Source of the DNA: Mycoplasma tullyi
GTDB taxonomy: Bacteria > Bacillota_I > Bacilli_A > Mycoplasmatales > Mycoplasmoidaceae
Direction of reading: 5' to 3'
NCBI RefSeq assembly: GCF_014068355.1
Contig: NZ_CP059674.1
Span: forward strand, 186,001 to 250,000
DNA length: 64,000 nt
Shown: piece after piece, positions 41,795 to 43,640 of the stretch
Position numbering within the stretch: the first letter of the stretch is position 1
Layout of the letters: each line of letters starts with the position of its first letter
The notes under the pieces: generated by a model
Databases searched by the model: none
Seen by the model: the letters and a program-made list of their open reading frames with translations, nothing else
What the model was told of the DNA's origin: nothing
Position numbers and translations under genes: made by a program

Positions 41795-42733
41795 CTAATT
41801 ATCAAATAGTCCTTTTAGTTCTTGGTTTAGGTCAAGATGAACATCGAATAGTTTTTTCATAAAAACTTCATCAGGTTTTACTTCAAAGAATAACGGTACG
41901 TTAGTTGTTGGGTGAGTCAGTTCTAATTGATAAGCATGTAAAAACTGCTTATAATCAGTTCTTTGTTCTCCTTTAACTCCGTATAGTGGATCGTTAACAA
42001 TATTATGTTTGATGAAATCCATGTGAACACGGATTTGGTGAGTTCTACCTGTTAATAACTCACATTTGATTAGTGCATACTTCTTATTTTGATCAAGTAC
42101 GTAAATCTTTGTAATCGCGTTCTTAGGGTTTTTGGTGTTTTCAACCCCAAACTTTAAATCATGATCTTTTAGATAACCGATTGGTGCATCAATTACAGCT
42201 CTTAATTCATTAAACGGATAATGAACGATCGCTAAATAATAACGCTTCATTGTTCTTTTAGTTATCTGTTCTTGAATTTTTTCAAGCGCTTTAAAGTTCT
42301 TTGTAGCAACAATTAAACCCGTTGTATCTTTATCTAATCGGTGAGCCAAATAAACCTTTTGTTTATTGTTGTGATACATCAAACAATTCAATAAAGTATC
42401 AGGTTCATTATGAGTTGTTGGATGAGACAACATATTAGTTTCTTTATTAACAATAATTAGATCATCGTCTTCATAAACGATATCTAATTTTTTGTTAAAA
42501 GGTAAGATCTCATTACTTACTTTATTAAAGATACTTTCATCATATTCAAGTTCAACTACATCGCCAACTTTAAGAACAAAATTGTTCTTATTTACCAGTT
42601 TTTTATTAACTTTAACTAAATCATTAAGAATTAAAAATGATGTCTTATTCCTAGATAAATCTAGGTTATAAGTTAAGAAGATATCTAAACGAATTTTTTC
42701 GCTATCGTTATTAACAAAAGTATGTTTAGGCAT
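41795..42733 (-). CDS. RluA/RluD-family pseudouridine synthase
   Basis: The 312-aa product isomerises specific uridines in rRNA. An N-terminal S4 domain (about residues 12-70) is followed by the catalytic motif HRLDKDTTGLIVATK (about 131-145) with the nucleophilic Asp, then LLTGRTHQIRVHM. The length and motif order fit RluD/RluC. It overlaps the end of the lspA fusion gene by 8 bp (ATGCCTAA), so the two are translationally coupled. Confidence 0.92.
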   Translation of the reverse strand: MPKHTFVNNDSEKIRLDIFLTYNLDLSRNKTSFLILNDLVKVNKKLVNKNNFVLKVGDVVELEYDESIFNKVSNEILPFNKKLDIVYEDDDLIIVNKETNMLSHPTTHNEPDTLLNCLMYHNNKQKVYLAHRLDKDTTGLIVATKNFKALEKIQEQITKRTMKRYYLAIVHYPFNELRAVIDAPIGYLKDHDLKFGVENTKNPKNAITKIYVLDQNKKYALIKCELLTGRTHQIRVHMDFIKHNIVNDPLYGVKGEQRTDYKQFLHAYQLELTHPTTNVPLFFEVKPDEVFMKKLFDVHLDLNQELKGLFDN

Positions 42734-43640
42734 TGTTTTCTACTTGTTTACACTTCTTAGTGTAATAGCACTTTTCATTGAAACGTGAACAAGCTAGAAA
42801 ACTAACTTGTTTGTCGTCAACTTTTTTAATCATTTCATTTTTACAGATTAGACAGTTTTCTTCGTTTTCTACAGAGATTGGTTTAGCATTATTAATTAGA
42901 TCAATGTATTCACACTGTTCATTTGAACAAATCACTTCTTTTTCATGAATCATCATTTTATGATCACAAAAAACACATTTGTGATCATCTCATTGATTTC
43001 ATTTACTGCGTTCTTGTTCAGGAACGCTCTTTCAGCCATGAAGTTGTTTGTTAGTTGTTGAACTTGACTTCTTATATTTATTCTTTAAATCCATGAAGAC
43101 ATCTACAACAAACATGACAAAGATTAAAACAAACCCTGTAACAATACAGATATCAGAGAAGTTAAAAATTGCTGATGATTTAAAGAATTGGAAATAGTCT
43201 AAAACTGAATTGTTTTCAACCATTCCATTACTTAAAGTAATTGGAATTGATCGATCAATCACATTTCCCAACCCACCAAATGTGATTAAGGGTAACAATC
43301 CAATTAAGGCTTTATTTTTGGAAAAAATAAAGGTAATCAAAAAGATGATTGTTAATAAGATCTGTAACAAATAAGGTACAACAGGATTTTGATTAAATAA
43401 AGAAAACCCAACACCTGAATTGGTAATCACATTAATCGTGATAAACCCATTAGATGAAGTATATCCAATCCCCAGTTTTAAGAAATAATCCCTTAAAACA
43501 AAAACAATTAATAAGATAACAAATCCCATTAGTACTAGAATGGGATATTTGATCTTGATTAGTTGTTTGGTATTTGCAGCCTTGAACTGTCTAATTAGTG
43601 TATCTTTAGTTTTACTAAGATATCTTTTAAAAGTATACAT
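42726..43640 (-). CDS. lspA: Lipoprotein signal peptidase LspA fused to a double zinc ribbon
   Basis: The product has 304 aa. Residues 32-180 are a four-span LspA with the expected motifs NSGVGFSLF (about 74-82), FGGLGNVIDR (121-130, catalytic Asp 129) and FNFSD (159-163, Asp 162). Read with UGA as Trp the frame does not stop at residue 202 but continues for about 100 residues that hold two zinc-ribbon-like units: C222-x2-C225 with C238-x4-C243, and C263-x2-C266 with C284-x6-C291. The ribbons resemble topoisomerase I C-terminal fingers. LspA cleaves lipoprotein signal peptides. The fusion would be invisible under the standard code, and usual LspA is about 160-190 aa. Confidence 0.85.

Follow-up and report, generated by a model that had tools for sequence, protein, structure and literature searches.

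A predicted lipoprotein signal peptidase with a C-terminal double zinc ribbon related to that of topoisomerase I in Mycoplasma tullyi

Lipoprotein signal peptidase (LspA, signal peptidase II) is the target of globomycin, and its membrane topology, which sets the orientation of both termini, is established. Globomycin-sensitive cleavage of prolipoproteins has been described in Mycoplasma gallisepticum at the level of the cells, not of this particular gene (PMC3438114). The C-terminal zinc ribbons of topoisomerase I (TopA) are the second point of comparison. In Escherichia coli TopA, these ribbons bind ssDNA, with an aromatic residue of beta strand 3 (F616 in D5 and Y728 in D7) stacking on the bases; mutation of F616 to L or E lowers relaxation, and the C-terminal domains also contact RNA polymerase (PMC4678816). 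In the window, the whole 64,000-nucleotide stretch of M. tullyi DNA analysed here, lspA carries a tail with two Cys4 units (Table 1). The protein appears to be a known enzyme with an added domain from the relatives of a known family, a combination that is new in the genomes sampled and the literature searched.

The lspA gene and its reading frame

The product of 42726-43640 is LspA by all sequence tests except one narrow score cut-off. Peptidase_A8 (PF01252) matched residues 45-177 with an E-value of 5.2e-14 and 53.1 bits, against a curated cut-off of 25. In this fast-evolving mollicute, the TIGR00077 score of 68.2 bits was narrowly below the equivalog cut-off of 73.95, which is a score line and not a mechanistic feature. 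Four hydropathy peaks were detected (residues 30-48, 87-105, 111-129 and 164-182), and the N-terminal loop is strongly basic, with eight K/R against one D/E. D129 (NxxDR) and D163 (FNxxD), the two catalytic Asp of the LspA family, are invariant in the alignment of the genomes with the fusion, so that the claim of the initial annotation that both are intact was borne out. Considering the four spans, the basic N-terminus and the known LspA topology, the tail is placed in the cytosol, and both termini of the protein should face that side. The linker between core and ribbons is the part of LspA that evolves fastest among the fused genomes. The gene that follows encodes what we presume, from its own sequence, to be an RluD-type pseudouridine synthase. 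The lspA-rluD pair was found in 11/11 genomes of the genus, and five of the six fused loci share the 8-nt overlap of the rluD start with lspA.

Table 1. Features of the lspA locus, in window positions
Feature	Coordinates	Strand	Remarks
lspA ORF	42726..43640	-	304 aa with UGA read as Trp; stop TAA 42726-42728
LspA core, residues 30-182	43095..43553	-	Four hydrophobic spans; from hydropathy, Peptidase_A8 and invariance
D129 codon	43254-43256	-	Motif NVIDR
D163 codon	43152-43154	-	Motif FNFSD
Linker, residues 183-219	42984..43094	-	With W203 (TGA 43032-43034), W214 and W217
Predicted ribbon 1	42912..42977	-	C222-x2-C225-x12-C238-x4-C243; stacking position E235
Predicted ribbon 2	42768..42854	-	C263-x2-C266-x17-C284-x6-C291; stacking aromatic F281
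Presumed RluD-type pseudouridine synthase	41795..42733	-	Start overlaps the lspA end by 8 nt

With translation table 4, the gene is a single frame of 304 codons, and with table 11 it is broken at the TGA of W203, giving two ORFs. Comparison of the six fused genomes indicates which reading applies. The Trp214 codon is TGG in G003 and TGA in the other five; for Trp217, G009 has TGG and four genomes have TGA. These swaps are direct proof that UGA is read as Trp, and the proposal that lspA extends through an in-frame UGA was confirmed. The eight Cys of the two units lie at the residues originally named (C222/C225/C238/C243 and C263/C266/C284/C291) and are invariant in all six genomes, their codons switching between TGT and TGC. 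Ribbon-region dN/dS was 0.08-0.36 among pairs with measurable dS, several further genome pairs being synonymously saturated, and mostly 0.1-0.2: M. tullyi gave 0.19 with G009 and 0.09-0.12 with the remaining genomes, and the pairs G009-G001 and G003-G001 gave 0.36 and 0.32, respectively. A candidate internal start at 42956 falls past C222 and C225, so that ribbon 1, and hence the ribbon pair, cannot come from it. Neither a UGA that is not read as Trp nor production of the ribbons from this internal start only, the two findings that the initial annotation had named as speaking against it, was encountered. On this comparative evidence, the ribbon tail is translated as part of LspA and is maintained by selection.

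Relationship to the topoisomerase I ribbons

Each unit of the tail fits the pattern CxxC...C(x4-6)C, and the two stand in tandem. In a search of 198 genomes, the best matches of the tail outside LspA were the TopA of G009 (E 9.6e-8) and the TopA of M. tullyi itself (E 6.4e-7), and both align over both ribbons. The weakly matching loci L070, L084 and L086 have no recognisable TopA ribbon pair. Profile–profile alignment of the tails with the TopA ribbons of the clade gave a probability of 96.4% and an E-value of 1.2e-9 over 79 columns, with the two units aligned in the same order. The clade's TopA ribbons scored 25.7-33.6 bits, compared with at most 12.3 for 900 shuffles in which the Cys positions were fixed and the remaining letters permuted. 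The Pfam profile Zn_ribbon_Top1 (PF01396) retrieved three of five tails, the best with an E-value of 8e-4 and 19.8 bits; since this score is below the cut-off of 32, the tail is filed as a diverged relative and not as a member by the Pfam rule. The profile–profile E-value, together with a score above that of all 900 shuffles, identifies the resemblance to the C-terminal fingers of topoisomerase I, pointed out in the initial annotation, as a true relationship, and by sequence the LspA tail and the double zinc ribbon of TopA are homologous. Together with the dN/dS of the ribbon region, the shuffle result also speaks against a chance feature.

A PDB sequence search with full LspA or with the tail profile gave no significant match. 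AlphaFold models of full-length LspA and of its tail (three sequences) had pLDDT values of 42.6 and 36.9; because this confidence is too low, the ribbon fold rests on sequence homology. Both ribbons are predicted to fold around zinc.

Distribution and origin of the fusion

The LspA-ribbon fusion was detected in six of the 11 genomes of the genus, and the other five (G002, G004, G006, G007 and G008) have an LspA free of ribbons. Identity to the M. tullyi protein is 83% in G009, 77% in G003 (Mycoplasma imitans ATCC 51306), 71% in G005, 70% in G010 (M. bradburyae IZSV97/66) and 60% in G001. A search of the family and order (198 genomes) with the tail profile retrieved LspA-borne matches in these six genomes exclusively, and no CxxC was present in the tails of other translated LspA proteins of the family and class sample, among the matches listed. 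The same profile detected no third ribbon copy in the M. tullyi genome, where LspA and TopA alone match. The remark that no LspA with such a tail had been described held for the genomes sampled and the literature searched; no paper on an LspA joined to a zinc ribbon was found there, which is weak evidence, as most subscription journals lay outside the scope of the search. The six fused genomes group with one another on LspA identity, and their simplest history would be a single gain, in the ancestor that they share with M. imitans and M. bradburyae among them.

TopA retains both of its own ribbons in 11/11 genomes of the genus, which indicates that the pair was copied, not transferred, from topA, and a loss of the topA ribbons to lspA was rejected for the same reason. 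In the tree, the branch leading to the LspA tails is 2.5 changes per column long, and no placement of the tails is possible. Forcing the tails to join the clade's TopA lowers the likelihood by 0.8 lnL (p-AU 0.47), which is not rejected, and forcing them to join the other same-genus TopA lowers it by 12.4 lnL (p-AU 0.08). The TopA proteins L071 and L077, which come from a different genus in the family and had entered the comparison set by matching the tail, score as high as the clade's own TopA. Considering these scores and the long branch, the clade's own topA is the likely but not the proved source of the copy.

Some further observations concern the same genomes. At the second CxxC of ribbon 2, the TopA of the six tail genomes (L057-L062) has a non-proline residue (CELC or CDLC), and the TopA of the five other same-genus genomes has CP.C. 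The Myco_haema (VlhA) family has 41 matches in the M. tullyi genome. A tie between the tail and the vlhA lipoproteins was considered and rejected: of the genomes with the tail, five contain Myco_haema genes and the sixth, G001, contains none, so the tail and the VlhA family are not coextensive.

Other LspA variants occur in the family. In L097/L023 (G018:C1:6952-7527 and beyond), one open frame of 429 codons covers both LspA and an RluD-type synthase, apparently with no S4 domain in between, although RluD could still start at an internal Met. L095, L096 and L117 (G016:C23 and G025:C2) are LspA proteins with very long charged C-terminal extensions, about 400 to 790 residues in length counted from the second catalytic Asp in stop-to-stop frames. 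In G014, G015, G024, G069, G074, G079 and further genomes from the family, order and class, Peptidase_A8 had no hit at E 0.001 among the matches listed, and LspA is either lost or too diverged there.

Possible roles of the tail

Stacking sites were taken as the third residue before the third Cys, by hand count from F616 and Y728 on the 4RUL sequence. In ribbon 1 of the six LspA tails, this residue is E, E, Q, Q, Q and N; ribbon 2 has F throughout. The net charge of the ribbon pair is -3 to +2 in LspA versus +7 to +13 in TopA, and the ribbon 2 block FLACSRFNE is invariant in the six genomes. Most, but not all, of the DNA-binding features are gone from the LspA tail, with the zinc ligands and FLACSRFNE fixed, a combination more in keeping with a role in docking or stability than with a tether to nucleic acid. 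The expectation in the initial annotation that the tail binds nucleic acid was not supported, given the missing basic charge and the aromatic lost from ribbon 1; ribbon 2 has kept its own, and some nucleic-acid binding may persist through F281.

The reading that we prefer, at roughly even probability, is an active-looking LspA with a copied TopA ribbon pair that serves as a cytosolic docking or stabilising module. Starting from the observed fusion, translation signal, conservation and TopA homology, it supposes that an ordinary LspA acquired the double ribbon a single time, in the ancestor of the M. imitans/M. bradburyae group. In the cytosol, both ribbons would hold zinc, with the parent's DNA-binding surface mostly lost, and the module would bind a protein partner (for instance the secretion machinery, the ribosome, RNA polymerase or LspA itself), placing or steadying the peptidase. 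In a genome-reduced bacterium, a housekeeping enzyme of the membrane would then have acquired a zinc-ribbon module of the TopA family, probably as a copy from its own topoisomerase, which stays under selection while shedding much of its parent's DNA-binding character. Such a handle on the inner side of LspA points to a possible placing or regulation of lipoprotein maturation in these cells. An improbable extension is that the tail docks LspA to the machinery of transcription or translation (RNA polymerase, the ribosome or nucleic acid); abundant surface lipoproteins of a genome-reduced bacterium would then be matured at the membrane in a step coupled to their synthesis.

It is unlikely, but deserves consideration, that the tail acts as a nucleic-acid tether, binding ssDNA, mRNA or rRNA and so tying LspA to the nucleoid or to translating ribosomes. 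Homology to an ssDNA-binding module (PMC4678816), the F281 position kept in 6/6 and a neighbour from an rRNA-modifying family speak for such binding, whereas the charge shift and the E/Q/N at the ribbon 1 stacking site speak against it, the latter in the light of the reduced relaxation of the E. coli F616 mutants (PMC4678816). We consider it quite unlikely that the tail is purely structural or passive, stabilising LspA or its translational coupling to rluD with no partner: other kinds of C-terminal extension are common in LspA of the family and the rluD overlap is largely kept, but the invariance of FLACSRFNE exceeds the needs of a spacer. More doubtful is a metal or redox sensor in which LspA activity would change when the tail loses zinc or its thiols are oxidised. 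Eight invariant Cys in a predicted cytosolic location would suit a sensor; against this, the active site lies toward the outer face, no link from it to the tail was seen, and Zn(Cys)4 sites with a structural role are both common and stable. An artefact of two adjacent frames, in which the tail is untranslated beyond a UGA stop or made from an internal start only, as the two table 11 ORFs might imply, has a negligible probability in view of the purifying selection on the tail, the identical junction in all six genomes and, above all, the TGA/TGG swaps, on which an untranslated tail was rejected.

The protein can be set beside three known systems. With the C-terminal zinc ribbons of topoisomerase I, the tail shares two ordered Cys4 units and a FLxCSxF...C[YF]TK signature, but it sits on a membrane peptidase, is not basic, has no stacking aromatic in ribbon 1 and scores below the Pfam cut-off. 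With the same-family LspA proteins that have other extensions (L095, L096 and L097), it shares growth past the fourth span, whereas their extensions consist of charged repeats or RluD and have no Cys4 ribbons. With LspA itself, it shares the four spans, the NxxDR and FNxxD motifs and the adjacent rluD-type gene, and differs in having about 120 additional C-terminal residues, predicted to be cytosolic, that contain the double Cys4 ribbon.
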